From a virus: a stretch of 31,009 bases of DNA. A program made the translations under genes and the position numbers. The notes below the pieces were generated by a model. The model saw nothing but the letters and a program-made list of their open reading frames with translations, ran no database searches and was not told the origin of the DNA. Shown one piece after another: positions 8,394 to 31,009 of the stretch. The first letter of the stretch is position 1. Every line of letters starts with the position of its first letter. The stretch is from positions 1 to 31,009 of the IMG/VR virus record IMGVR_UViG_3300034736_000139. One strand, 5' to 3'.

Positions 8394-8576
8394 TTAAACA
8401 GATTTTTTCACTGATTTCCTGTTTACTTTTTTAGGATTGCACAATTTGTATGCCTGTTTTACTGTTTCACTATTCAAATAATGAAATTGTTTTAATGCAT
8501 CTTTTTGTGTTAAATCTTTTAAAACATCAACCCTGAATGTGGTTTTTCCAACCGTGATATATTCTGTTTTTCCCAT
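8394..8576 (-). CDS. Small basic protein following the major tail protein
   Basis: A 60-residue protein (MGKTEYITVGKTTFRVDVLK) with a strongly basic C-terminus (NPKKVNRKSVKKSV). It starts three bases after the major tail protein stop and is the last gene before the terminator at 8341-8370, so it is co-transcribed with the tail tube gene. There is no membrane segment or recognised domain. A minor tail or tail-assembly role is possible from position; the function is unknown. Confidence 0.75.
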   Translation of the reverse strand: MGKTEYITVGKTTFRVDVLKDLTQKDALKQFHYLNSETVKQAYKLCNPKKVNRKSVKKSV

Positions 8577-8579
8577 GAT

Positions 8580-9488
8580 TTATGCAGTTATTGTATTAAC
8601 AAATCCCTCAAAACCAGTTTTTGCAACTGATAATTTAAGGTTTACAGATGATGCCAATCCTGCACTGGTATAATCAACAATGTACGTGCCATCTGGCCCC
8701 TCTGTAACTGCATCAATTGTAACTGTTGTGCCTGCATCAACATTTTCCAACAACCAATCAGATGATGCCGTTGCACCTTTGTACAGAATTGGATTGTATG
8801 CCGTTCCGTAATCTAAATTTGCAGAAACGGTAATTGCCGTTGTTGTTGCACTTGCAACAGTTAATTCAACATCAAGTAAACCCTCTAAACTGTTAAAATC
8901 CAAACTTGCTTCCTCTGCCGTGATCATTTTCATTGTTGATTCATCAAACAACCTGTAAAAATCAAATCCTAGCATGATTTTTTGTACGGTTGCATCTGTT
9001 GCAAACATAAATTTTGGATCCCATGAATCGTTGTCCACTGGTATTGGGTATAAAAATCCGTTCACTTCTGATCCGATTAAATCACCCTCAACATCAACAA
9101 TGTAAATTCCAAACTGCACACAACGTGATGCCATTAATTTACCCAAAAATGTTGGTGTTGAATCATCCTGCCATAACTCACCTGCAAAGGATCTCACACC
9201 TTGACGCAAATATGCTTTACGGCCACTGTTTGCCTCCTCAAATAAGGAATCCGCTTTTGGTAATTCTACATTTTCAAATTTCGGTAATGGAAACCAACGT
9301 TTTGATGCATCCGCCTCATTAACGTAATCACTCCATGTTGGTATTGATGCACTTAAATCAATACCGTTTTTTGTACCATCATTTGCCGTTAAAGGCACTA
9401 AAATTAGGGAACTTGTTATTCCCTGAACAGGTACACAGTTTGGTACTCCTGTGTTACTTAAACCTGCATTACAATCACATGATTTCAT
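8580..9488 (-). CDS. Major tail (tube) protein
   Basis: A 302-residue protein. The N-terminus is Cys-rich (MKSCDCNAGLSNTGVPNC). The middle is beta-rich and includes FAGELWQDDSTPTFLGKL and FGIYIVDVEGDLIGS. The C-terminal ~100 residues (ELTVASATTTAITVSANLDYG onward) look like a small Ig-like beta domain, a common decoration on siphovirus tube proteins. It lies between the connector genes and the tape measure region, the expected place for the tube protein, and I see no other candidate of suitable size. Assignment rests on synteny and fold impression rather than a catalytic motif. Confidence 0.75.
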   Translation of the reverse strand: MKSCDCNAGLSNTGVPNCVPVQGITSSLILVPLTANDGTKNGIDLSASIPTWSDYVNEADASKRWFPLPKFENVELPKADSLFEEANSGRKAYLRQGVRSFAGELWQDDSTPTFLGKLMASRCVQFGIYIVDVEGDLIGSEVNGFLYPIPVDNDSWDPKFMFATDATVQKIMLGFDFYRLFDESTMKMITAEEASLDFNSLEGLLDVELTVASATTTAITVSANLDYGTAYNPILYKGATASSDWLLENVDAGTTVTIDAVTEGPDGTYIVDYTSAGLASSVNLKLSVAKTGFEGFVNTITA

Positions 9489-13268: not shown

Positions 13269-14465
13269 ATGGCAAACGATTTTTGGACTTCAATATTTGG
13301 ATGGTCTAACCAAAACAGTGATAAATTTATGCAATACCTGAACAATAACCAACAAAGTTATTACGGTACAAAGGATGCGGTTTGGGTAGATACCAACAAA
13401 CCATTTGAACTGTATTTGCAGGTGCCTGAATTAAGAACTGTAATTGATAAACGTGCATCAATGATGGCATCAGGATTGCCAGTTTTAAAAAATTCAGATG
13501 GTGAAATTGTTACTGATCATCAATGGGTACAGGATTTAATTGCAAAACCAAACCCAACACAATCATGGTCTGATGTTATTTATTCACTTTCAGTTAATGA
13601 TGGATTGTTTGCAAATGCATTTGCATATTGCCCAAAACGTTCATTTGATATACGTAATTTAATTGTGCCATTGCCATCATCAAAAGTTAAATTAAAACTT
13701 TCAGGCCGTTATTTAGATCAAATGGAAACAGGCGGAATGATCGAAAATTATCAGTTTTATTATGATGGTAAAAAATATGAAACAATTGAAATTGATGATA
13801 TGGTTTACATCAATACACCTGATGGTATTCATTTGGTGAATCCACGCAACAGGATTGAAACCCTGCGTTATCCATTATCAAACATCATTGCACAGTACAA
13901 AAAACGTAATGTGTTATTAGAAAATTTATCTGCAATTGGTATTTTATCATCAAATCAATCAGATCTTGGCGGATCATTACCAATGGATCCCAAAGAAAAA
14001 CGACAAATACAACAGGATTGGATAAAACGTAATTCAGATCAGATTGTAATTACTGAATCAAATGTTGATTGGACTCCAATGTCATATCCAACAAAACAAC
14101 TGATGTTATTTGAGGAACTGGATGCAGATAAAATGGCAATCATTGATGCGTATGGTTTATCACAATACCTGTTTGCATCATCAAAAGGTGCAACGTTTAC
14201 CAATGTTTTTGAAGGTATGCGTATGACCTATCAGGATACAATTATACCTGAAACAGATCAATTGTATGCAACACTTTCACATCAATTGGGCCTAACAGAT
14301 CAGGGATTGAAATTGTGTGCAGATTTTTCACATGTTGCCGTACTTCAAAAGGATCAGGTTTTGCAATCTGATGCAATGGATAAACGTGCAAATGCAGTTT
14401 TAAAAATAATTCAATCAGGTGTTGAATTATCTGATGATGAAAAACGTGCGTTGTTGGGCATTTAA
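13269..14465 (+). CDS. Portal protein (HK97 type)
   Basis: A 398-residue portal monomer that would form the dodecameric DNA channel at the capsid vertex. Family features are ELRTVIDKRASMMASGLPV near residues 54-72, VQDLIAKPNPTQSWSDVIYS near residue 90, the DGIHLVNPRNRIETLRYPLSN region with helix NIIAQYKKRNVLLENLSAIG, and the C-terminal TFTNVFEGMRMTYQDTIIPE segment. It is followed 9 bases later by the convergent end of a small minus-strand gene. It is the sole plus-strand gene in the genome, although neighbours TerL and prohead protease are its normal operon partners on one strand. Codon use (TCA, ACA, GCA, CGT) matches the rest of the genome, so a local inversion is more likely than recent import. 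Confidence 0.93.
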   Translation: MANDFWTSIFGWSNQNSDKFMQYLNNNQQSYYGTKDAVWVDTNKPFELYLQVPELRTVIDKRASMMASGLPVLKNSDGEIVTDHQWVQDLIAKPNPTQSWSDVIYSLSVNDGLFANAFAYCPKRSFDIRNLIVPLPSSKVKLKLSGRYLDQMETGGMIENYQFYYDGKKYETIEIDDMVYINTPDGIHLVNPRNRIETLRYPLSNIIAQYKKRNVLLENLSAIGILSSNQSDLGGSLPMDPKEKRQIQQDWIKRNSDQIVITESNVDWTPMSYPTKQLMLFEELDADKMAIIDAYGLSQYLFASSKGATFTNVFEGMRMTYQDTIIPETDQLYATLSHQLGLTDQGLKLCADFSHVAVLQKDQVLQSDAMDKRANAVLKIIQSGVELSDDEKRALLGI

Positions 14466-16752: not shown

Positions 16753-17109
16753 TTAAAATATCAGGTTAAACAATATGATTATACCTGCAACCATTGCAAT
16801 GCGTATAAACGTTAATTTTAAACTGGATGGCTCAATTAAATACAGTTTAAATGATGCATGTGTTGCATGCGGTAAAAATAAATGTATAAACCGATCAATA
16901 CTGAACAATAAAAACATTACTGGTAAAAATGCAATACCCAATATTTTTTTCCAAATGGGTAATTTTTTTACTGTTTCATTTCTTTTGTTTTTGATTGCCT
17001 CAATTTTTTTATCAAATGCATCATCAATTTTTTTTACCTTTGTTGGTTTTGCTTTTTTCATTTCTTTAATTGCTTTGCGTGTTAAACTTCGTTTTTGTTG
17101 CCTGTTCAT
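16753..17109 (-). CDS. Basic two-helix membrane protein upstream of TerS
   Basis: A 118-residue protein from ATG 17109 (MNRQQKRSLTRKAIKEMKKA). Residues 1-50 are strongly basic and helical. Two transmembrane segments follow at about 53-75 (ILGIAFLPVMFLLFSIDRFI) and 99-118 (LTFIRIAMVAGIIILFNLIF). An upstream start at 17175 is open but lies above the TATATTTG promoter box at 17114-17121 and inside a hairpin, so I reject it. It is first in the packaging unit. No family is recognised; host membrane interaction or superinfection exclusion are guesses. Confidence 0.65.
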   Translation of the reverse strand: MNRQQKRSLTRKAIKEMKKAKPTKVKKIDDAFDKKIEAIKNKRNETVKKLPIWKKILGIAFLPVMFLLFSIDRFIHLFLPHATHASFKLYLIEPSSLKLTFIRIAMVAGIIILFNLIF

Positions 17110-17113
17110 TTTA

Positions 17114-17121
17114 CAAATATA
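17114..17121 (-). promoter_or_regulatory. -7 promoter box for the packaging unit
   Basis: TATATTTG on the minus strand, four bases from ATG 17109. The geometry is the same as at 8306-8313 and implies a nearly leaderless mRNA for the membrane protein-terS-terL unit. Confidence 0.55.
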
Positions 17122-17129
17122 ATAAATTA

Positions 17130-17173
17130 GAAAATGGGATGCATTTACATGGTGTTTTAACCATCTGCACCCC
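17130..17173 (-). terminator. Two-tier stem-loop between early and packaging units
   Basis: The outer stem GGGATGCA (17136-17143) pairs with TGCACCCC (17166-17173) with one G-U wobble. The inner stem ATGGT (17149-17153) pairs with ACCAT (17160-17164), closing a 6-nt loop. It lies between the stop of the early unit (17228) and the packaging promoter. The U-run after it is weak (AUUUUCUAAUUU), so it may be a terminator or a structured leader of a transcript starting near 17190. Confidence 0.6.
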
Positions 17174-17195
17174 ATTCACATAAAACATAACATTT

Positions 17196-17203
17196 CAAAT
17201 TTA
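17196..17203 (-). promoter_or_regulatory. Possible -7 box upstream of the two-tier stem-loop
   Basis: TAAATTTG on the minus strand, 25 bases past the early unit stop. It would start an RNA beginning near 17190 that runs through the stem-loop at 17136-17173 toward the packaging genes. AT-rich context makes chance matches possible. Confidence 0.4.
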
Positions 17204-17227: not shown

Positions 17228-17542
17228 TTAATGCGGTGAAAATGGTTTTACACGCAATACACCCACATTATCAATTTGGCCGTTTAAATAGGCATCAAAT
17301 GCCCTCTGCAATGATCCTTTGTTGGTTTTACACATAACATTGTTCATGCGTTCACTGTATTCAATTAAATTAACAGATGCATTTGCCCTGTTGCAAAATT
17401 TATGCATATCAGTTATGGTAAAAAATCCGCCCTGAATACTGCAATTTGGTTTTGATAACAGGTATGTACACATTTCATCAAATGTTTTTGGCACCTGATT
17501 GTTGTGATGATGGGCCTGATCCTGTAAATTAATATCATTCAT
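17228..17542 (-). CDS. Small early protein of unknown function
   Basis: A 104-residue soluble protein (MNDINLQDQAHHHNNQVPKT). It has four Cys spread through the sequence and an internal helix pair (HKFCNRANASVNLIEYSERM). The last base of the upstream stop is shared with its ATG region, so the two are translationally coupled. No domain is recognised. It is the last gene of the early unit that begins at 18564. Confidence 0.7.
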   Translation of the reverse strand: MNDINLQDQAHHHNNQVPKTFDEMCTYLLSKPNCSIQGGFFTITDMHKFCNRANASVNLIEYSERMNNVMCKTNKGSLQRAFDAYLNGQIDNVGVLRVKPFSPH

Positions 17543-17934
17543 TATTCTATAATATCAGAAATTGATTTTTCAACCGTGCCTGTTCCGTTGCACTGATCAC
17601 ATTCTATTTCCTTATAACAACCCCCACAACATTCATTTGATTGATCATGGCAATTCATAACCTCAACAAAACCCTCACCATAACATTCATCACAATCCCA
17701 TCCAATGGAATCATCATTGTGTTCCAATTCATGTGATAAAAATGTATCAACAGATTGATCAGTAAATTTAACGGTGTGTTCTGTAACCTTTGTTTTTTGC
17801 ATTCCACTGGATTGCACATAAACAACTGTTATTATTTCAGAATCAATAACCAAACCAATTTGGTTTGTTTTTAATACCATTACCTGATCATGCAGATCAA
17901 TAATGTTTGGGCCTGTGTGATGATTGTTTTCCAT
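17542..17934 (-). CDS. Early protein with DnaJ-type zinc-finger motifs
   Basis: About 130 residues from ATG 17934 (MENNHHTGPNIIDLHDQVMV). The C-terminal third carries CDECYGEGFVEV, a Cys/His-rich linker ending CCGGC, and CDQCNGTGTV. These are CxxCxGxG motifs as in the DnaJ cysteine-rich domain, enough ligands for one zinc finger. The N-terminal half is a small beta region (VLKTNQIGLVIDSEIITVVY). The frame opens further to 17967, but that ATG lies inside the terminator hairpin, so I use 17934. It may bind unfolded protein or nucleic acid; partner unknown. Confidence 0.75.
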   Translation of the reverse strand: MENNHHTGPNIIDLHDQVMVLKTNQIGLVIDSEIITVVYVQSSGMQKTKVTEHTVKFTDQSVDTFLSHELEHNDDSIGWDCDECYGEGFVEVMNCHDQSNECCGGCYKEIECDQCNGTGTVEKSISDIIE

Positions 17935-17952
17935 AATTTGTACGGTTATATT

Positions 17953-17982
17953 AAAAAAAATGGGCATGTATTACCATGCCCA
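17953..17982 (-). terminator. Hairpin terminator, copy 1 of a 21-bp identical element
   Basis: The stem TGGGCATG (17961-17968) pairs with CATGCCCA (17975-17982) over loop TATTAC, followed on the minus transcript by eight U. It is 12 bases past the stop of the 189-residue gene. Bases 17961-17981 are identical, loop included, to 24471-24491. It probably sets the ratio between the first early gene and the genes after it. Confidence 0.85.
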
Positions 17983-18564: not shown

Positions 18565-18610
18565 AATCAATGTTTTATGTTTTTTAATACTGCGGTTGCC
18601 TCGTTGCAAC
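18565..18610 (-). promoter_or_regulatory. 46-nt leader with 5' hairpin, copy 1
   Basis: The expected transcript starts near 18610. Its first 16 nt can fold as GTTGC-AACGAG-GCAAC (5-bp stem, 6-nt loop), and it ends AAAACATTGATTATG at the start codon. Copy 2 at 24791-24836 has the same length, an identical first 17 nt and nearly identical last 14 nt, with a diverged middle. A stabilising 5' stem or a binding site for a regulator is likely. Confidence 0.65.
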
Positions 18611-18614
18611 AATA

Positions 18615-18622
18615 CAAATATA
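18615..18622 (-). promoter_or_regulatory. -7 promoter box, early unit 1
   Basis: TATATTTG on the minus strand, four bases upstream of the GTTGCAAC that opens the leader. It overlaps the end of the palindrome at 18620-18642, so a bound protein would block RNA polymerase. Confidence 0.6.
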
Positions 18623-18642
18623 TATAAATTTAATTTATATAT
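18620..18642. promoter_or_regulatory. AT-rich palindromic operator, site 1
   Basis: A perfect inverted repeat: ATATATAAATT (18620-18630), centre T 18631, AATTTATATAT (18632-18642). It is 21/23 identical to site 2 at 24844-24866, with related sites at 23320-23342 and 20609-20631. It lies between the HTH gene and the gene it would control, directly upstream of and overlapping the -7 box. Confidence 0.65.
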
Positions 18643-18656
18643 GACTATTGAAACAT

Positions 18657-18700
18657 AAAAAAAACACTTTTACCCTATATTTTTTTTTAATACAGGGTAA
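18657..18700 (-). terminator. Terminator after the HTH gene
   Basis: The 12-bp stem TTACCCTATATT (18670-18681) pairs with AATACAGGGTAA (18689-18700), with one G-U wobble in the minus transcript, over a 7-nt loop. An eight-U run follows after five bases. It lies 20 bases past the HTH stop and isolates the recombination unit from early unit 1. Confidence 0.85.
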
Positions 18701-18720
18701 TCATGGTGTGTATAATGCAA

Positions 18721-18948
18721 TTATTTGTTGATCAGATCACCAATTTTTTGCACTGTGGTTAAATTCAAACCACGTTCATTATTCAGGAACATGTACATTT
18801 GGTTTGGATGCACTGCACATTGTTTTGCAAATGCATGTACAGATAAATTGTTTTCCGTGATGTAATGATTGCAGATTGCACGTACATCCGACACCAAATA
18901 TTTTAATTGTTCTGATTTAATCGGTTTAATTTTGTTTTTCGTTTCCAT
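18721..18948 (-). CDS. Small helix-turn-helix DNA-binding protein
   Basis: A 75-residue protein (METKNKIKPIKSEQLKYLVS). Residues about 36-73 read as an XRE/Cro-type helix-turn-helix: LSVHAFAKQCAVHPNQMYMF for the helix, turn and recognition helix, then LTTVQKIGDLINK. There is no dimerisation or protease domain, so it is more Cro-like than CI-like. It is the last gene of the unit starting at 20582 and sits beside the palindromic site at 18620-18642. I infer that it binds the shared early palindromes and autoregulates through the 20609-20631 site; nothing in the sequence proves this. Confidence 0.8.
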   Translation of the reverse strand: METKNKIKPIKSEQLKYLVSDVRAICNHYITENNLSVHAFAKQCAVHPNQMYMFLNNERGLNLTTVQKIGDLINK

Positions 18949-18957
18949 AAATTGTTT

Positions 18958-19347
18958 TTAAAATGGTAAATCACCATCTGATGATCCCTGTGATTCATTA
19001 AAATCCTGTGCCGTTTCACTCATTGGTTTAACCTTTGGTGCCTTTGGTGTTGGTAATGGCATGCCACCAACTGTTGCAATTTTCCATCCCTGTAATGTAT
19101 TGAAATACATTGTATCACCTGTTTTTGGGTTTTCCCATGCACGGCCACGTAAATTAAAATCAATTTCAACTTCCATTCCCTGCACCAACATCCCTGATTC
19201 ATCAACCAAATCATTAACAAACTGCACCTGTATTGATTGCGGATAATCACCGCCAGTGTTTACAATTACATCACGTTTTCTGAATGAATTTGATATTTCA
19301 ATTTCCTCTTTTACTAATTCAATTGTACCATTTAATTTAAATTCCAT
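18958..19347 (-). CDS. SSB-like OB-fold protein (DUF3127 type)
   Basis: A 129-residue protein. Residues 1-95 form a small beta barrel-like domain (MEFKLNGTIELVKEEIEISN, FRKRDVIVNTGGDYPQSIQV) that I match from memory to DUF3127, a Bacteroidota single-stranded DNA-binding family. A Pro/Lys linker leads to an acidic tail ending SSDGDLPF, the typical SSB tip that recruits partner proteins. It sits between Gp157 and the HTH gene, downstream of the annealing protein, and probably coats single strands during replication and recombination. Confidence 0.8.
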   Translation of the reverse strand: MEFKLNGTIELVKEEIEISNSFRKRDVIVNTGGDYPQSIQVQFVNDLVDESGMLVQGMEVEIDFNLRGRAWENPKTGDTMYFNTLQGWKIATVGGMPLPTPKAPKVKPMSETAQDFNESQGSSDGDLPF

Positions 19348-19358
19348 TTTTCCTGTTT

Positions 19359-19850
19359 TTATTTGATTTGTAAATTTTTATTTGTAATTAATTCCGCACC
19401 ATCAACTGTGGCACCGCCTTTTATGGCCCTTTTGATTTCCATTTTATCAATTTTTGTTGTGATAATTTGGGTAATAAATTGTTTATCAATTGCATTTTCA
19501 TCAGTTATTTCAACTGATTGTGATGATCTGAATGAAATTTTTGATATTGGTGTTTCAATAACATCCATTTCAAATTTTTGCATTGCATCAGATAATGCGT
19601 TTTCCAAACGTTCGGTTGCGTTTTTACGCACCTTTTTAATGGCTTGTAAACGTTTTATTTCTGCATCAACAATATCATTATCATATTTCATTGCACGGAT
19701 CACCTGTGCGTATCCTGATGCCTTTTGTTTCAATTGTGATTCCGTGATTTGCAATTGATCCTGCAATTCATCAGTTAATTCACCGCCATTTGCAATCAAT
19801 TCATTTACGATTAATTGCATATCATTTGATATTTTAAATAAACTACTCAT
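19359..19850 (-). CDS. Siphovirus Gp157-like protein
   Basis: A 163-residue protein. The N-terminal half is helical and coiled (LQDQLQITESQLKQKASGYA). It continues with RAMKYDNDIVDAEIKRLQAI and a beta region (PISKISFRSSQSVEI), ending in a basic segment. This layout is characteristic of the Gp157 family, often linked to recombination or replication in siphoviruses and sometimes to resistance against host phage defence; its biochemical role is unsettled. It begins three bases after the annealing protein gene and is 11 bases ahead of the SSB-like gene. Confidence 0.85.
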   Translation of the reverse strand: MSSLFKISNDMQLIVNELIANGGELTDELQDQLQITESQLKQKASGYAQVIRAMKYDNDIVDAEIKRLQAIKKVRKNATERLENALSDAMQKFEMDVIETPISKISFRSSQSVEITDENAIDKQFITQIITTKIDKMEIKRAIKGGATVDGAELITNKNLQIK

Positions 19851-19853
19851 GAT

Positions 19854-20582
19854 TTATTGTTTTAAAGATTTGTTAATTTCTGTTGCATGATCAATCTGTG
19901 ATTGTAAAAAATCAACCAATGTGTTTTCCTGTGGCACCGTTAAATCAAATGTTTTACGCAAATCATCCTCATGGTATGCACCATTTTTGATGGCCTGTAA
20001 TGCATCATCAAAACGTTTTGCATTAATTTTTTTCTTTGTTTCAACCTTTGGTTTTGGTTTTTCAGGTGCAGGTGCAGGTGCAGGTGCAGGTGCAACATAT
20101 CCATCAGGCAAATCCTCACCTGCATAAATATAAATGCCCAATCCAAACATTGCCAAATTTTTAACCAAACAACGCATTAATGCTTTGTTAATATCCATCA
20201 TGGATGCAGGTGCAACAGTTATTGTTTTACCTGATCTGAATGTAATTTGGTATTCATCACTTTTTTGTGCATTGTTTGAATTATCCATTACTGGCAACCA
20301 CATATCATGTGATTCACCGCCTGTTGTAACACGTGTTTGCACTAAAATACCAAACTGATCAACCATGTACGGTTTATTTGTTTCAGGATCTTTGATGATC
20401 TCATAATTGGCATCAGGGCAATGTTTTTTAAATTCAGACCATGCCCATGCCCATGATAAATATGTGAAATTGTTGCGTTTTTCTGTGTTTGCATTAACGT
20501 TTAATGCAGATAATTTTGCAAACAACGGTTGTTGTTTTTCTGTTGTTGCACGTGGTTTACGTGCGGTTTTTTTCTGTTCCAT
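19854..20582 (-). CDS. Single-strand annealing protein (DUF1071 / Sak3 type)
   Basis: A 242-residue recombinase. Residues about 18-160 match the DUF1071 pattern: LFAKLSALNVNANTEKRNNF, TYLSWAWAWSEFKKHCPDA, GILVQTRVTTGGESHDMWLP and MMDINKALMRCLVKNLAMFG. A linker of five Ala-Pro repeats follows near residue 165, encoded by five CAGGTG hexamers at 20063-20092. The C-terminus is a small helical domain (FDDALQAIKNGAYHEDDLRK). It should pair complementary strands in recombination-dependent replication. No partner 5'-3' exonuclease gene is evident. It is first in its unit, behind the palindromic site at 20609-20631. Confidence 0.85.
   Translation of the reverse strand: MEQKKTARKPRATTEKQQPLFAKLSALNVNANTEKRNNFTYLSWAWAWSEFKKHCPDANYEIIKDPETNKPYMVDQFGILVQTRVTTGGESHDMWLPVMDNSNNAQKSDEYQITFRSGKTITVAPASMMDINKALMRCLVKNLAMFGLGIYIYAGEDLPDGYVAPAPAPAPAPEKPKPKVETKKKINAKRFDDALQAIKNGAYHEDDLRKTFDLTVPQENTLVDFLQSQIDHATEINKSLKQ
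20063..20092. repeat. CAGGTG hexamer repeat (Ala-Pro linker)
   Basis: Five exact tandem copies of CAGGTG on the plus strand, in frame, encode the Ala-Pro linker between the annealing core and the C-terminal helical domain. A short tandem tract like this can vary in copy number by slippage without breaking the frame, changing linker length. Confidence 0.9.
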
Positions 20583-20608
20583 TTTTGTTATGTTTTATAT
20601 TTCTGCTA

Positions 20609-20631
20609 ATATACAAAATAAATTTGTATCA
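20609..20631. promoter_or_regulatory. AT-rich palindromic operator, site 4
   Basis: Arms ATACAAA (20611-20617) and TTTGTAT (20623-20629) are perfect, with a 5-nt AT centre. It matches site 2 at 19 of 23 positions. It lies 29 bases upstream of the annealing protein ATG. A second, shorter site (TAAATT T AATTTA, 20636-20648) is centred 22 bp further upstream and overlaps the ninG stop codon. Confidence 0.5.
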
Positions 20632-20645
20632 ACTGTAAATTTAAT

Positions 20646-21206
20646 TTATTTAACCTGTAATTGTTTTATTTTCTGTTTATAAAATTCAATTTTTTGTTCA
20701 ATTTGATCAACCGATAATTCAAGTTTATGCCATCTGTGATCATCCAAATACATTAACTGATCAGGTGTAATGCGTTCCGTGATCCGCAAACGGTATTCAT
20801 GTGCATTTGATCCCCTGTGTTTATTGCACCGCACACATTGCCCAAAACAATTGTTTTCATGAAACCGCAAAAATGGGTATCGTGATTTTTCCCAAAAATG
20901 CCCTGCATCATATTTACTGTTTTCCAATGATGTACCGCATGAAATACATCCCTTTTTTACATCACGGATCCTGATAAATTTATTGAAATACTTTTGCAAT
21001 TTATTTTTCCATTCTGTTGGTGTTGTTAATTCCAACCGCTTTGCCTTTGTTTCTTTTTTATCCTGTATCTGTTTTATCTTTTTTTCCTTTTGGCTTTTAA
21101 CACTGGCATGTTTTAATGCACATTGCCATCCGCACACAATTTGTTTTTCATTTTCAGGATAAAAATCATCTTTGCAAACTTTGCATTTTTTGTTTTTTTG
21201 TTTCAT
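20646..21206 (-). CDS. ninG: NinG/Rap-like recombination nuclease
   Basis: A 186-residue protein of the lambda NinG (Rap) family, which processes branched DNA in recombination. The N-terminal zinc-binding CKVC and CGWQC pairs (residues 8-29) are followed by a Lys-rich helix. A second CISC pair lies near residue 88, then YDAGHFWEKSRYPFLRFHEN and NCFGQCVRCNKHRGSNAHEY, the HNH-like core with its Cys and His ligands. It starts directly after dnaB and is last in the initiator-dnaB-ninG unit. Confidence 0.9.
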   Translation of the reverse strand: MKQKNKKCKVCKDDFYPENEKQIVCGWQCALKHASVKSQKEKKIKQIQDKKETKAKRLELTTPTEWKNKLQKYFNKFIRIRDVKKGCISCGTSLENSKYDAGHFWEKSRYPFLRFHENNCFGQCVRCNKHRGSNAHEYRLRITERITPDQLMYLDDHRWHKLELSVDQIEQKIEFYKQKIKQLQVK

Positions 21207-22547
21207 TTAAAATGGGTTTTGTTCCTGATATTGTTCAACAGGTTTTGTATTATTAAAATCAGGCATTTGCAGATCATCACCCCATGTTGATGTTGATAAT
21301 TCAACAACCATTGGCACAATCCCTGTTTCACCCTCACGATTTTTTGCAATTAAAAACTCACCTTTGCCCTGTGTACTCATGCCCTGATCATCCTGTGTTT
21401 CACCGTAATATTCTGCACGGTGTAAAAATGCAACAACTGATGCATCCTGTTCAATTTCACCTGATTCCTTTAAATCAGGTAATGATGGCCGTTTACCTGT
21501 TTTTGCAGAATCACGTGATAATTGGGCCATTGCAATGCACGGTATTTCAACACTCATGGTTAAACGTTTAATATCATTTGATATGCGTGTAACCTCTGTG
21601 TATCTGTTTTCAGTTTTTTCAGGTATTATTTTTTGCATATAATCAACCATGTAAACATCCAATCCTGTTGTATTTTTTAACTCTGTAACTTTGCGTGATA
21701 TATCCGCAACCTTTTGTGATCCATCAATAAAAGTTAAATTATCCCAACCCTTTGATGATTGCACTGCATAAATGTGTTTTAATTCATCTGTTGAACATTG
21801 GCCCAGTTTAATTTTATTTGAATCAATACCTGTTATTGTTGCCAACATCCGCCTCATAATTTGTGCATTGCTCATTTCCAATGAAAATACACATACTTTT
21901 TTATTCAAATCAAATGCCATTTGTTTTGCACAGGATACCAACCATGCAGTTTTTCCCATTGCAGGCCGACCACCAACAACCATAACATCAATGTTTTCTA
22001 ATATAATTTTATTGTATGTGCCATCCCAACCCAACTGCAAACCAAATTCAACACCATTTTTTGCATCATTGTGCCGTGATATTACATTTTGAATTATCTG
22101 ATCATTTGTTTCACCTGATTTCACACCAACATCCAACAACATTGATTTGGTTTTATCACATAACTGTATTACATCATCAGGTGAAAAATTTGGTGATTCC
22201 ATTTTTTGTATAAAATCACGTGCAAATTTATTCACTTCATTAATCTGATATTGAAAATTTACAGTATTCATCAATGATTCAATCCGAATGTATGGAACAT
22301 CCGTTGTTGCCAGTGATGTTTGATATACTGCATCTTTGGATAAACGGTTGTTTTCACGTAAAACATCAGTTACTGTAACAATGTCAATTCCACGTTTTTG
22401 CTTTGTTAATTCACCAATTGCAAAATACCAATCTTTGTGTATTTGCAACATGTTCCATTCAGGTTTTATCAATGGGTAATATTCGTTTATTACTTCCTGA
22501 TTATGGATAAATAAATGCCCATAAATCTGCGTTAATTCTGTAACCAT
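21207..22547 (-). CDS. dnaB: Replicative DNA helicase (DnaB family)
   Basis: A 446-residue hexameric helicase that unwinds the replication fork. The N-terminal helical domain (residues ~1-150) is followed by the RecA-like motor: Walker A GGRPAMGKTAW near residue 190, VCVFSLEMSNAQIMRRMLA, Walker B LDVYMVDYMQKI near 300, then IAMAQLSRDSAKTGKRPSLP and LKESGEIEQDASVVAFLHRA, and an arginine-finger region (IAKNREGETG). The C-terminus is a short flexible tail. It follows the initiator by 10 bases, and the initiator probably loads it, as in lambda O/P systems. No phage DNA polymerase or primase is visible, so host enzymes are needed. Confidence 0.95.
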   Translation of the reverse strand: MVTELTQIYGHLFIHNQEVINEYYPLIKPEWNMLQIHKDWYFAIGELTKQKRGIDIVTVTDVLRENNRLSKDAVYQTSLATTDVPYIRIESLMNTVNFQYQINEVNKFARDFIQKMESPNFSPDDVIQLCDKTKSMLLDVGVKSGETNDQIIQNVISRHNDAKNGVEFGLQLGWDGTYNKIILENIDVMVVGGRPAMGKTAWLVSCAKQMAFDLNKKVCVFSLEMSNAQIMRRMLATITGIDSNKIKLGQCSTDELKHIYAVQSSKGWDNLTFIDGSQKVADISRKVTELKNTTGLDVYMVDYMQKIIPEKTENRYTEVTRISNDIKRLTMSVEIPCIAMAQLSRDSAKTGKRPSLPDLKESGEIEQDASVVAFLHRAEYYGETQDDQGMSTQGKGEFLIAKNREGETGIVPMVVELSTSTWGDDLQMPDFNNTKPVEQYQEQNPF

Positions 22548-22557
22548 GTGTTATGTT

Positions 22558-23295
22558 TTATTTTGTTGGTGTGTATTTGTTTGATTGTTTTGATTCACTA
22601 AATGCATACTGATCCAATGTTTTGGGCCTTGCAAAATATTCCAATGTACAATATTTAAAATTGTTTTGTTTATGGAAATCATCAGATTTGCACACACTCA
22701 TTGCCTTTGCAATTTCAATTGTTGTGTATCCATCATTTACCCGTGCGGTAAATTTTTGTTTTACTGATGGTGAAAATACACGGCATTTTTTACTAAACGT
22801 ATCATTGAAAAATACCAATAATTTATCAAATTCAATTTTATTTGATTTACTTTTATTTTCTTTTATTTCCTTTGTTGGTATTTGTTCAACAGGTGTTAAA
22901 CTTTGTTCAACATGTGTTGAAAGTAATGCACGTTTTTCTGCACTTTTTTTACCTGCCATACTGCGTTTTTCAATAACTGATGCACGTTTTTCCATGTTGT
23001 TTAATACACGTTCAGAATAAAAACAATCATTATCTGATTTTAATATTTCACAATCATCAATCAAACAATGTATCATTTTTTCAACCTCAACTGGATCCAC
23101 TTTTAATTGAAAACCAATTGCGGTAAAAATATATTTTTTTAATGGTAATTTTTTTTGTTGATCCTCATGCAACATTTCAATGATCCGCCAAAATACACCG
23201 TATCCTGATGCACCAAACATTGATAAAAATGCCTGAATTTTGGGATCTGATGTTGTTGAATAATCATGTGAAAAATAAAATGTATCTTTTTTCAT
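22558..23295 (-). CDS. Phage replication initiator (Lin1244-type N-terminus, Phg_2220-type C-terminus)
   Basis: A 245-residue protein. The N-terminal ~95 residues (DTFYFSHDYSTTSDPKIQAF, SMFGASGYGVFWRIIEMLHE) match the winged-helix Lin1244/Lin1753-like domain found in phage replication proteins. A low-complexity linker follows, containing HVEQ and PVEQ. The C-terminal ~80 residues (VFSPSVKQKFTARVNDGYTT, NNFKYCTLEYFARPKTLDQY) match the conserved phage C-terminal domain Phg_2220_C. It should bind the origin and recruit DnaB. The linker DNA holds two tandem palindromes (22885-22921), echoing lambda, whose origin lies in the O gene. Family names are from memory. Confidence 0.85.
   Translation of the reverse strand: MKKDTFYFSHDYSTTSDPKIQAFLSMFGASGYGVFWRIIEMLHEDQQKKLPLKKYIFTAIGFQLKVDPVEVEKMIHCLIDDCEILKSDNDCFYSERVLNNMEKRASVIEKRSMAGKKSAEKRALLSTHVEQSLTPVEQIPTKEIKENKSKSNKIEFDKLLVFFNDTFSKKCRVFSPSVKQKFTARVNDGYTTIEIAKAMSVCKSDDFHKQNNFKYCTLEYFARPKTLDQYAFSESKQSNKYTPTK
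22881..22922. repeat. Two 21-bp direct repeats, possible origin iterons
   Basis: Repeat units 22881-22901 and 22902-22922 are identical at 18 of 21 positions, seven codons each. Each contains a palindrome TTCAACA-NN-TGTTRAA (22885-22900 with one mismatch, 22906-22921 perfect). Centres are 21 bp apart, two helical turns, on the same DNA face. The position inside the initiator gene linker is that of a lambda-type origin. Confidence 0.5.
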
Positions 23296-23319
23296 GGTGT
23301 TATGTGTTATGTTTTATGT

Positions 23320-23342
23320 AAATACAAATTTAATTTATTTTT
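23320..23342. promoter_or_regulatory. AT-rich palindromic operator, site 3, with -7 box
   Basis: AAATACAAATT (23320-23330), centre T, AATTTATTTTT (23332-23342); 9 of 11 pairs match. Inside it, 23325-23332 reads TAAATTTG on the minus strand, a -7 box 29 bases from the initiator ATG (23295). The site would control the initiator-dnaB-ninG unit. Confidence 0.5.
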
Positions 23343-23343
23343 T

Positions 23344-23832
23344 TTAATTATTGTTTAACAATTCGTTTAAATCAAATTTTGTTGTTAATGCTTTTTTAAT
23401 ATGTATCTGTTCCATTGAATAACCATGCACTTTTGCATTCAAAACGTTTGCATATTTTGGCATTAATATGTTACCCTGTACAAAATCAAATCCCTGTGGT
23501 GTGATCCTGTACATTCCTGCAACATCATGATCAGGTTGAATCAATTTAAAATAAACTAATTTTTGCCAATCTGCACGTTGTGATGGTGTGATGTTTTCCG
23601 CATTCAAAATATCAGTAAATTTTGAATACTGATTTTGATTTTTGCGTTGATGTATTACAAATTTAATCAGGCAATATGCCATTGTTGATGCCAATTTACG
23701 TTTGTACATTTGCACCCTTTGATTACATGCAGGGCAATAACAACCATCTTTGTAATTATCATTTAAATACTGTTTAATCTGTGCCAGTGTTGCCGTTGGT
23801 ACATGCACATGCATGTTTGTTTCATCATTCAT
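23344..23832 (-). CDS. Early protein with a CxxC zinc motif
   Basis: A 162-residue protein (MNDETNMHVHVPTATLAQIK). CYCPACNQRV near residue 32 is a short zinc-ribbon-like Cys motif. The following region (LIKFVIHQRKNQNQYSKFTD, SQRADWQKLVYFKLIQPDHD, GMYRITPQGFDFVQG) has the look of a winged-helix domain with a beta wing. A DNA-binding role is therefore likely. It is the last gene of the unit starting at 24790 and lies just before the initiator promoter, so it may help replication or transcription. No family assigned. Confidence 0.75.
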   Translation of the reverse strand: MNDETNMHVHVPTATLAQIKQYLNDNYKDGCYCPACNQRVQMYKRKLASTMAYCLIKFVIHQRKNQNQYSKFTDILNAENITPSQRADWQKLVYFKLIQPDHDVAGMYRITPQGFDFVQGNILMPKYANVLNAKVHGYSMEQIHIKKALTTKFDLNELLNNN

Positions 23833-23833
23833 A

Positions 23834-24067
23834 TTATATTTTTTTTGGTGTTTTATTCATTTTTGATTGATAAACCATGCATTGATTACCATCAATAAAT
23901 TCAATTGTGTATGGTATTTCCTCAACATTCCAAACATGGAAATCAAATTTTTCTGCATAAAAAAAGTAAAAACCCTCTGATGCTTTGTTGTGTATTTTGT
24001 ACAATTGTTTCATCAGATCATTTTGATCCTCATAATACAATTCAATATTAATTTTTTTCAATGCCAT
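23834..24067 (-). CDS. Small early protein, unknown
   Basis: A 77-residue protein (MALKKINIELYYEDQNDLMK) with alternating beta and helical segments and many aromatic residues, ending in a basic tail (KMNKTPKKI). It overlaps the preceding 48-residue gene by 20 bases and is followed one base later by the zinc-motif gene. No membrane segment or recognised domain. Small alpha/beta early proteins like this are often host-takeover factors, but nothing here shows a target. Confidence 0.7.
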   Translation of the reverse strand: MALKKINIELYYEDQNDLMKQLYKIHNKASEGFYFFYAEKFDFHVWNVEEIPYTIEFIDGNQCMVYQSKMNKTPKKI

Positions 24068-24194
24068 CCCTGTGTGCTTTAAATTTTAAATAATGGGCCA
24101 AATTAAATGATGTGCGTATTACATCACTGTTTTGTTTTGTGTTCCAAAACCGTATGCACGATTTTTCACGGTGTGTTAAAAATGGAATTTTCAT
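24048..24194 (-). CDS. Very small early protein, unknown
   Basis: A 48-residue basic protein from ATG 24194 (MKIPFLTHREKSCIRFWNTK). An upstream in-frame start at 24251 would overlap the preceding gene by 46 bases and add an unlikely N-terminus, so I choose 24194. It overlaps the next gene by 20 bases. There is no recognised domain. The tight packing in the early unit is the main support that it is real. Confidence 0.6.
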   Translation of the reverse strand: MKIPFLTHREKSCIRFWNTKQNSDVIRTSFNLAHYLKFKAHRDGIEKN

Positions 24195-24205
24195 GTTTTT
24201 AAATT

Positions 24206-24445
24206 TTATAATTGAATAAATCTGTAATGGCCGTGCGGATTCAAACCGCAATAAACCTCATTTAAATCATCATCATTGTTAATATCAAAATAAAACGTTA
24301 AATATTTATTTTTTAAGAAATCACCATTTTCATCAATAACATCACCACACCCATCAACCCTGTACGAATCAACCTGCAATTCAAATGGAAATGTTTTTTT
24401 AATTGATCTTTGTGCCATCTGTAAATAATTTGTGTAACTACTCAT
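24206..24445 (-). CDS. Small early acidic protein, unknown
   Basis: A 79-residue protein (MSSYTNYLQMAQRSIKKTFP). The C-terminal half is acidic and beta-like (DENGDFLKNKYLTFYFDINN). It starts 26 bases after the hairpin at 24471-24491, in the same position relative to that hairpin as the 130-residue gene has to the hairpin at 17961-17982. Function unknown; no membrane segments. Confidence 0.7.
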   Translation of the reverse strand: MSSYTNYLQMAQRSIKKTFPFELQVDSYRVDGCGDVIDENGDFLKNKYLTFYFDINNDDDLNEVYCGLNPHGHYRFIQL

Positions 24446-24470
24446 AATATTTGTTTTATAAAATTAATAA

Positions 24471-24491
24471 TGGGCATGTATTACCATGCCC
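24471..24491. terminator. Hairpin, copy 2 of the 21-bp identical element
   Basis: The stem GGGCATG (24472-24478) pairs with CATGCCC (24485-24491) over the same TATTAC loop as copy 1. Unlike copy 1, the long T-run lies on the plus-strand side (24494-24501), and the minus transcript continues AUUAUUAAUUUUAU. It may therefore act as a weak terminator or attenuator in the sense direction. Confidence 0.75.
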
Positions 24492-24499
24492 TGTTTTTT

Positions 24500-24790
24500 T
24501 TAATATTTTGATAAACCCAATAATTGTAATGCCTCACGTTCTTTTTTGTATGTTTTGTATGATTTACCTGAATTACGAAAATATTTTTCAGAAAACATCA
24601 ATGTATCACAATCATCATCAGTGTAACCCTCAAACCAAAACCATACATCAACATTACCAAAACCAAAATATGTTTTTTGATGATTTTTTAACCCAATTGA
24701 ATCACCAAACCTGTTAAATGCAACAGTAAATAATTCAAATTCAAATCCTTTGTTTGTAACTGCGTTGTGTAATTCTTGTAATGTGTTCAT
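24500..24790 (-). CDS. First gene of the early region, behind operator and leader
   Basis: A 96-residue soluble protein (MNTLQELHNAVTNKGFEFEL). It is acidic and aromatic-rich in the middle (YFGFGNVDVWFWFEGYTDDD), with a basic C-terminal helix (KSYKTYKKEREALQLLGLSK). It is not similar to the 189-residue protein that carries the same leader. It is first in its unit and controlled by the palindrome at 24844-24866, so it is probably among the earliest proteins made. No family recognised. Confidence 0.75.
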   Translation of the reverse strand: MNTLQELHNAVTNKGFEFELFTVAFNRFGDSIGLKNHQKTYFGFGNVDVWFWFEGYTDDDCDTLMFSEKYFRNSGKSYKTYKKEREALQLLGLSKY

Positions 24791-24836
24791 AATCAGTGTT
24801 TTAAGTAATTAATTGATGTGGTTGCCTCGTTGCAAC
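24791..24836 (-). promoter_or_regulatory. 46-nt leader with 5' hairpin, copy 2
   Basis: It matches copy 1 (18565-18610) in length and in its first 17 nt (GTTGCAACGAGGCAACC), and ends AAAACACTGATTATG at the start codon. The GTTGC/GCAAC arms give the same 5-bp stem and 6-nt loop. The middle of the leader is unrelated between copies, which argues for selection on both ends. Confidence 0.65.
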
Positions 24837-24840
24837 GGTG

Positions 24841-24866
24841 TAAATATACAAATTAAATTTATATAT
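24841..24866. promoter_or_regulatory. AT-rich palindromic operator, site 2, with -7 box
   Basis: ATATACAAATT (24844-24854), centre A, AATTTATATAT (24856-24866); 10 of 11 pairs match. A TATATTTA near-match to the -7 box (24841-24848, minus strand) lies four bases upstream of the leader, the same spacing as at 18615-18622. The layout of box, leader and palindrome is the same as at site 1. Confidence 0.6.
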
Positions 24867-29987: not shown

Positions 29988-31009
29988 TTATTGTGCTAAT
30001 GTTTTTATTGCGGTTAATAAACCACTGGTTGTTTTTAAAACTCCATCCGTTGTGCGTTTACTGTTGGTGTTTAATGTTATTGGGCATCCTTTTATTTTTG
30101 TTGTAAATTTAGCACCATTTGCCAAATTAATTATATCAGGATTAAAAAAACATTCAATTTGTGCCACATTTTGTGATGGATATGTTATTACCATCTGCAC
30201 ACCGTTAATTGGTCTTAATGGATTTGATAAATCATTATCAAATGGTAAAACTGAACTGCATATTGTACGTGCGGTTGATTCAAATGGCTCAACAGTAATC
30301 ATGGCCCATGTATCATTTGGATCCCATGCCTGCCCATTATTAATGGTATGTGTTGCCACAATACGCATTGTTTCACCAATTGCAATAACCTGTACATTTT
30401 GCCCTGTGGATTCAATAAACATTTGAATATCCTGATCAATAACCGTTGATGAATCATACGGTAAATCACGTATTACATTACTGTTAATAAATGCCAATCC
30501 ATCTTTTATCAGTGATATTTTAAAACGTATTTCCCATGCAGGAATATCATCATATTGCTCCCAATTTCTGTTTTGTGTTGGATAAAAATCTGTTGATGCA
30601 TTTTGTTGTTGCAACCAATATTGCCAGTTTAATAAAAATGGGTAATAAACAGATACACCATATTGCGTTGCCGTATCCATTGATGGTACACGTTTAAATA
30701 ATGCGTTTATTTTTGCACTGTTTGATGGTAATGTTGATACAATTGGCAATGTTTGATTGATTAAATATTGCCCTGCATTATTTATTTGAATACCGCCAAA
30801 TGAAAACTGTGATGATTGTAATGCAAAATCATCCTGTGATGTGCCGTTGAAAACTTCCATTTCCATTGTTAAACGTTCATAAACCTGATTATTATCCAAT
30901 AAAAATGTACCATACCATGCACAATCATCCTCTGTATTTGCAACAAATCCCTGTTTTGATCCGCCAATTTGTGTGATATTTTGCCCATGATCTAAAAAAC
31001 CAAAATTGG
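29988..31009 (-). CDS. Tail protein, C-terminal part (5' end continues at base 1 side of the circle)
   Basis: The frame is open from base 31009 to the stop at 29988. Bases 30779-31009 duplicate 1-231, so the unique part is 29988-30778, which continues the gene starting at ATG 1534. The apparent Met at 30899 used by a simple start search is not a methionine codon (TTG, FLLDNNQ context) and is internal. The C-terminal region is beta-rich (LLNWQYWLQQQNASTDFYPT, WEIRFKISLIKDGLAFINSN) with no recognised family. See the entry at 1-1534 for the whole protein. Confidence 0.85.
   Translation of the reverse strand, partial: NFGFLDHGQNITQIGGSKQGFVANTEDDCAWYGTFLLDNNQVYERLTMEMEVFNGTSQDDFALQSSQFSFGGIQINNAGQYLINQTLPIVSTLPSNSAKINALFKRVPSMDTATQYGVSVYYPFLLNWQYWLQQQNASTDFYPTQNRNWEQYDDIPAWEIRFKISLIKDGLAFINSNVIRDLPYDSSTVIDQDIQMFIESTGQNVQVIAIGETMRIVATHTINNGQAWDPNDTWAMITVEPFESTARTICSSVLPFDNDLSNPLRPINGVQMVITYPSQNVAQIECFFNPDIINLANGAKFTTKIKGCPITLNTNSKRTTDGVLKTTSGLLTAIKTLAQ
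30779..31009. repeat. Terminal direct repeat, right copy
   Basis: A copy of bases 1-231 with one mismatch (T at 30906 against C at 128). It closes the genome into a 30,778-bp circle. The single silent difference suggests strain heterogeneity in the source or a base error. Confidence 0.95.

Follow-up and report, generated by a model that had tools for sequence, protein, structure and literature searches.

An operon-head promoter module at exchangeable gene slots and a candidate antisense RNA matching a start-site motif in a group of uncultured phages

The virus record IMGVR_UViG_3300034736_000139 of the IMG/VR database, analyzed here over its whole length of 31,009 bases (the window), carries two copies of a regulatory cassette, composed of a promoter and a leader in front of a small gene. 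The copies are referred to as P1 (18565-18642) and P2 (24791-24866), and a third slot, situated before the gene of the annealing protein Sak, as P3. We describe the cassettes as operon-head modules located at exchangeable accessory-gene slots, and connect the 3' end of their leaders with a start-site motif that is complementary to the 5' end of an unannotated candidate small RNA. This whole explanation, slot modules together with an antisense RNA acting on the start-site motif, is in our judgement reasonably probable. A narrower claim, toward which we lean slightly, is that this uncultured phage group employs a trans-acting RNA of 60-90 nt, whose 5' end, complementary to the start motif, would jointly repress the replication and recombination genes and the P1 gene, and that seed and motif have shifted together on at least two occasions. 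The cassettes, the RNA and its predicted target sites are all on the minus strand.

The candidate small RNA (17124-17191) lies approximately 1.4 kb downstream of P1 and upstream of a small gene (16753-17109), in a position that is syntenic in relatives. It starts with GUUAUGUUUUAUGUG, and its parts follow in the order of a promoter-like -7 box TAAATTTG (17196-17203), 4 nt, GTTATGTTTTATGTG and a strong hairpin, the free 5' end being GUUAUGUUUUAUGU. The z-score of the hairpin is -4.1 in the window and up to -7.2 in relatives, and nearly every copy of the RNA has the -7 box at a distance of about 4 nt upstream. The window gave no family match at the gathering score in an Rfam scan. A short reading frame at the 5' end (ATGTTT...) was dropped as a candidate, its frame and length not being conserved.

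Flavobacterium does not use Shine-Dalgarno sequences, and adenines upstream of the start codon enhance initiation there (PMC6847099). In the window, AAAACA or AAACAT occurs within 30 nt of the start in 17 of the 37 genes; the 3' end of the leader is thus not special to the cassette. The phage start motif is more specific than such A-rich context: it consists of AAAACATAAC directly before the start codon, and nucleotides 1-10 of the small RNA are its exact complement. Besides the element itself, the window has three copies of this 10-nt complement: one lies 10 nt before the start of the replication initiator gene (22558-23295), one 2 nt before that of DnaB helicase (21207-22547) and one 4 nt before that of Sak (19854-20582). 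The start regions of all three are predicted targets, with perfect complementarity over 14 nt at the initiator (23306-23319) and over 12 nt at both DnaB (22550-22561) and Sak (20587-20598).

The same placement is seen in relatives, for which a terminase search yielded 80 loci with identity down to approximately 63% (record names are given in brackets at first mention). In seven representative genomes, 27 of the 28 non-self occurrences of the complement of nucleotides 1-10 are located at most 10 nt upstream of a start codon: 3/3 in the window, 3/3 in G029 (3300017719_000227), 6/6 in G008 (3300031673_000460), 7/7 in G022 (3300021185_003295), 3/4 in G013 (3300033571_003572), 2/2 in G014 (3300012666_000098) and 3/3 in G015 (3300034018_000748). 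The match mostly reaches no further than the nucleotide with which the RNA is predicted to begin, which fits contact at the level of RNA. When the 37 window genes are ordered by duplex energy, replication initiator, Sak and DnaB rank first. The P1 leader comes fifth; its ACATAAAACAT (18570-18580) is an 11-nt complement of nucleotides 4-14 of the small RNA (-11.3 kcal/mol, z -2.8), and pairing at the same P1 gene extends over 13 nt in G002 (3300035322_000070) and 14 nt in G028 (3300028844_004770). An earlier note on this DNA had proposed leader-based control. That idea survives in part, as the leader 3' end belongs to a start-codon motif apparently read by a trans RNA, but many genes without any cassette have a similar start context.

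In lineages in which the RNA begins otherwise (GAUGUUUUG, GUUUAUGUU), it goes together with a matching change of the start-site motif (CAAAACAUC, AACAUAAAC). The RNAs of G013 and G014 start with GATGTTTTG, and no 9-mer is commoner in their start regions than CAAAACATC; an Erf annealing protein and a RecE-like exonuclease are among the targets in the GATGTTTTG lineage. The RNA of G015, G018 and G019 starts with GTTTATGTT, and AACATAAAC precedes their gene starts. The 9-mer matches of the three main seed classes to their own start regions number 20, 10 and 5, and there are none across these classes. Own-class matches total 37, compared to a mean of 1.7 for letter-permuted seeds, which never reached 37 in 4000 trials. 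Reassignment of classes reached 37 in 6 of 5040 arrangements, all of them ties produced by classes that have no matches. As a negative control, 24 unrelated IMG/VR contigs with a chance copy of the RNA 5' end, picked up by a pattern scan, gave no start-site matches.

This co-variation bears on a simpler and in our opinion unlikely explanation, in which the motif would be mere translation-initiation context of Bacteroidota and the RNA-like element a cis-acting leader or terminator of gene 16753-17109. The stimulation of Flavobacterium initiation by A-rich contexts (PMC6847099) agrees with it, and so do the position of the element before the same gene in several lineages and its predicted self-pairing in G008 and G022, where the 5' end pairs with the 3' part of the same RNA. 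Generic context, however, would neither shift in step with the 5' end of the element (GATGTTTTG with CAAAACATC, GTTTATGTT with AACATAAAC) nor stop precisely where the element is predicted to begin, and the motif is missing from the 24 unrelated contigs that share the 5' end by chance.

The self-pairing counts against an antisense RNA as well, and several further observations weigh on the same side. The U tract of the small RNA is clear in G008, G028 and G029 and weak in the window. G010, G012, G017 and G027 encode a similar RNA and have no 9-nt targets, while matches in G023 extend over 8 nt only. A-rich start regions raise chance complementarity, although permuted seeds control for this A-richness. 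Pairing with the P2 leader is unconvincing (-8.8 kcal/mol, z -1.2), so that the P1 gene is a likely target, judging by predicted pairing, and the P2 gene probably is not; the RNA would then explain the conserved leader 3' end for P1 and P3, with plain start context at P2. Against the explanation as a whole, finally, many leaders are devoid of a 5' hairpin.

The cassettes themselves had been described in the earlier note as a duplicated set of parts, and every element named there is present in both copies. The AT palindrome in the promoter spacer is perfect at P1 (18620-18642, 11/11 pairs), with a core TAAATTAAATTTA that is kept beside -7 boxes in relatives, and has 10/11 pairs at P2 (24844-24866). 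The -7 boxes, TATATTTG at P1 (18615-18622) and TATATTTA at P2 (24841-24848), each precede GTTGC by 4 nt. The two leaders have the equal length of 46 nt attributed to them, their first 17 nt being identical, the middle 15 nt matching at 8/15 and the last 14 nt at 12/14 positions. GTTGCAACGAGGCAACC occurs exactly twice in the window (18610-18594 and 24836-24820), with 0.05 matches expected even at up to 3 mismatches. The 5'-terminal hairpin GTTGC-AACGAG-GCAAC (18595-18610 at P1, 24821-24836 at P2) would begin at the predicted transcript start, placed by the 4-nt distance from the -7 box. The first genes encode an accessory protein of 189 amino acids at P1 (17995-18564) and a 96-amino-acid protein of no known family at P2 (24500-24790). 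They are unrelated, as claimed (BLASTP between them gives E 3.7), and both are presumably early. The closing hairpin GGGCATG-GTAATA-CATGCCC is found exactly twice (17962-17981 and 24472-24491), none appearing in 100 shuffles; the copies are identical, as had been noted, but 20 bp in length instead of 21. The hairpin at P1 is followed by T8 and is terminator-like (17961-17982), whereas the P2 copy has no T run. Other terminator-like hairpins are located upstream of P1 (18670-18700) and P2 (24914-24939).

The promoter resembles the sigma-ABfr promoters of Bacteroidota, which in Flavobacterium have the -7 consensus TAHHTTTG and a transcript start 4-5 nt downstream (PMC6847099). P1 fits this consensus, P2 is one base off, and the predicted start at GTTGC is consistent with the spacing rule. 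The -33 TTTG, weak in Flavobacterium too (PMC6847099), is present at some sites of G008 and not clear at P1. A position matrix of spacer and -7 box finds 48 sites in 453 kb compared to 7 in reversed sequence, a count that is evidence of spread and not an independent test, because some of the sites trained the matrix. Six sites of the promoter module are located in G008. Contrary to the earlier note, the set is therefore not limited to two early genes, but represents an operon-head promoter of the whole phage group, with up to six copies per genome. A sigma-70 promoter scan of the window was uninformative, with fewer matches than in shuffles. A -7 box is also found at 17107-17121 (minus strand), where TATATTTG-TAAA-ATG leaves exactly 4 nt between the box and the start codon of gene 16753-17109, an arrangement that suggests a leaderless message; G028 and G029 have the counterpart TATATTTG-TATT-ATG.

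Part of the cassette could also be read as DNA operator. Either the 5-6-5 dyad (+1 to +16) or the AT palindrome would then bind a phage repressor, perhaps the helix-turn-helix protein encoded at 18721-18948, which is conserved in distant relatives. A core TAAATTNAATTTA adjoins the -7 box at 29 promoter-strand sites and at 0 sites in the reversed control, the distance between them differing by a few bases from site to site. Flavobacterium promoters nevertheless ordinarily have AT-rich motifs at -18 and -28 (PMC6847099), which makes an operator possible but unnecessary. The two departures from the perfect dyad are G-U pairs compatible with RNA, and unlike dyads occur within the single genome of G008; we thus consider the operator improbable and prefer a hairpin formed in the transcript.

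Stem-loops at the 5' terminus protect ends of messages, and shielding from 5' decay is the simplest reading of the leader hairpin and most likely its function. Stems of other sequence, with 5-6 pairs around a 6-nt loop, recur at the same position in G008 (TGTTGA/TCAACA, TGTTGT/GCAACA) and G033 (ATAGC/GCTAT). Such a 5' stem is present in 4 of 17 leader classes, that of the window included, against a shuffle mean of 0.075 and never 4 in 5000 shuffles; the tested geometry was taken from the window hairpin, so that only the three cases from elsewhere count as independent. Yet the hairpin is optional in the module. G028 and G029 retain promoter, 189-amino-acid gene and terminator with a leader that has no hairpin, which goes in part against the earlier expectation that leader ends are kept wherever the gene is kept. 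The RNA ends do look selected, as put forward earlier: the 5' stem recurs in different sequences in other lineages, and the 3' end belongs to the start-codon motif.

A nut- or put-like antitermination site, allowing polymerase to pass the hairpin behind the first gene, is a very improbable function of the leader hairpin and was rejected, as no association of hairpin with terminator was observed: G028 and G029 have the terminator and no leader hairpin, G003 (3300000928_000628), G004 (3300048103_000270) and L122 have the terminator without promoter or leader there, and the closing hairpins of P2 and P3 have no U tract. The idea draws on the terminator-like hairpin that separates the first gene from the remaining operon, and on the next gene (17542-17934, minus strand), directly after the P1 terminator, whose cysteine-rich product shows very weak likeness to Q-type antiterminators (E 0.054).

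The genes behind the promoters turn over between relatives. The P1 slot is filled with the 189-amino-acid gene in the window, G001 (3300023276_000101), G002, G028 and G029. The first three have terminator, promoter, hairpin leader, the gene and the GGGCATG hairpin, while G028 and G029 combine promoter and gene homologue with a changed but still paired hairpin, GGGCAGG/CCTGCCC. The closing hairpin alone, without promoter, leader or gene, is left in G003, G004 and L122; G008 and G009 (3300025690_000444) have other genes in the slot, and L131 has nothing. The P3 slot (20583-20645, minus strand) is empty in the window except for a promoter remnant. In G002, the sole filled case of the close clade, it contains the full cassette of promoter, leader, 97-amino-acid gene and hairpin; a different gene for 97-98 amino acids occupies it in G008, G031 and G022, and a gene for 60 amino acids in G034. 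The P2 slot holds the 96-amino-acid gene in the window, G001, G002 and G004, and has been swapped in G003 for other genes including a C5-cytosine methylase (L095, approximately 8460-9160; Pfam E 3.4e-7), possibly an anti-restriction gene. A homologue of the 189-amino-acid gene, 77% identical, is present among different small genes in an otherwise different 60.5-kb phage contig, whereas the 96-amino-acid gene was found in the window clade only. Pfam and PHROGs assigned mostly no family to the 96- and 97-amino-acid proteins and other slot genes, and an AlphaFold model of the 96-amino-acid protein (4 sequences) reached a predicted local distance difference test score of 57, too poor for a fold search. 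The 16-nt leader hairpin was found in IMG/VR at six loci in related contigs and in three unrelated contigs; exact matches in L003, L005 and L007 were judged to be chance, as no promoter module stands alongside. Judging by these arrangements, the cassette is an operon-head module at exchangeable accessory-gene slots rather than a purpose-built leader switch.

The two cassettes could simply have arisen when promoter segments were recently duplicated or recombined, in which case the leader hairpin would be functionless. Closing-hairpin loops are indeed alike within some genomes: the window and G004 each have GTAATA twice, and G002 has three loops GTAAAA. The leader middle is common to P3 of G002 and P2 of G003. 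Recent copying is difficult to reconcile with a perfect 17-nt start next to a leader middle of 8/15, or with stems of the same geometry and different sequences in G008 and G033, and we hold it to be rather unlikely. Hairpins of another family, AGGGGG...CCCCCT without U tract, follow several promoter-proximal genes in L099 and L100 (G008), L101 (G009) and L148 (G034), in parallel to GGGCATG of the window clade. In L138 (850-2050), belonging to the 60.5-kb contig with the 189-amino-acid homologue, two small genes are followed by hairpins of the GGGAGGGCA... type, and the leader aactaaaaaggaaggagaat is repeated.

Slots of this kind are reminiscent of phage morons. By consensus, P1 is flanked by terminators on both sides and starts from a promoter of its own; some close relatives have the unit and others lack it, and its gene occurs also in another phage, in agreement with horizontal acquisition. 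P2 and P3 differ from morons in heading core operons, their closing hairpins are without U tract, and the downstream genes need read-through. Conserved early regulatory sequences of archaeal viruses similarly place one strong promoter sequence before many unrelated small accessory genes; there the promoter is archaeal and anti-defence function was tested (PMC11065993), whereas the genes described here are known from sequence alone. The slot anatomy marks the places at which these phages exchange genes close to promoters; some of these genes may act against host defences, one slot holding the C5-methylase gene.

Taken together, we propose that a host-sigma promoter (TAnnTTTG, with the AT palindrome in its spacer) would start the transcript at GTTGC, and that the first 16 nt would fold into the protective hairpin. 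The A-rich leader would end in start-codon context, and the hairpin closing the first gene would end or stabilise part of the transcript, the remainder being made by read-through past slot genes that turn over. The leader 3' end would be a copy of a phage-wide start-site motif that, in most of the phages, exactly complements the small RNA 5' end. By covering these start regions, the RNA would repress translation of the P1 gene and of the genes for replication and recombination, perhaps as an early-to-late switch. The anatomy, the turnover of the slots, the complementarity and its co-variation between lineages are read directly from the sequences; transcription, timing and repression, like the role of the 5' hairpin, are what we infer from them. 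If true, one phage RNA would coordinate translation of a replication gene set by base pairing, in bacteria without Shine-Dalgarno use; the early-to-late switch would be directly testable with two point mutations, and lineage co-variation would allow similar RNAs to be detected with nothing but sequence data.

A functional analogy is provided by RegA of phage T4, a single factor competing with ribosomes at start regions of many early phage mRNAs (PMC3014915). RegA is a protein, while the factor proposed here is a base-pairing RNA; no RegA-like protein turned up, no search aimed at one having been made. OOP of lambda, sar of P22 and c4 of P1/P7 are likewise short phage-encoded RNAs pairing with phage mRNA, at one or few sites as described in a review (PMC12197685). 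The candidate RNA differs from them in that a single 5' seed fits 2-7 separate start regions, which change together with it from one lineage to another. The start-associated sequences of cluster K mycobacteriophages (SAS, and ESAS in the extended form) also represent a repeated motif before unrelated genes, sometimes with an upstream inverted repeat. Their 13-bp GGGATAGGAGCCC contains a Shine-Dalgarno core, the inverted repeats lie by the start codon and not at the transcript start, and no complementary RNA is described there (PMC3203893); GGGATAGGAGCCC is absent from the phage leaders, which were read directly. No published account of such a small RNA was found in the literature searched, which is weak evidence, most subscription journals being outside its coverage.

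The TAnnTTTG promoters and a DUF3127 protein probably point to a host from Bacteroidota. Searches of named phages and GTDB genomes revealed neither a host nor a cultured phage that is closely related, and nothing indicative of lysogeny was seen. The single GTDB match for the terminase (L200) is a contig in a metagenome-assembled genome labelled Rhodobacteraceae, which is probably a binned phage contig and not evidence of the host. The window is bounded by identical direct repeats of 231 bp (1-231 and 30779-31009), and therefore probably presents a complete circular map or a terminally redundant genome. Nearly all of its genes are on the minus strand, the portal gene (13269-14465, plus strand), which adjoins the terminase genes, being the exception.

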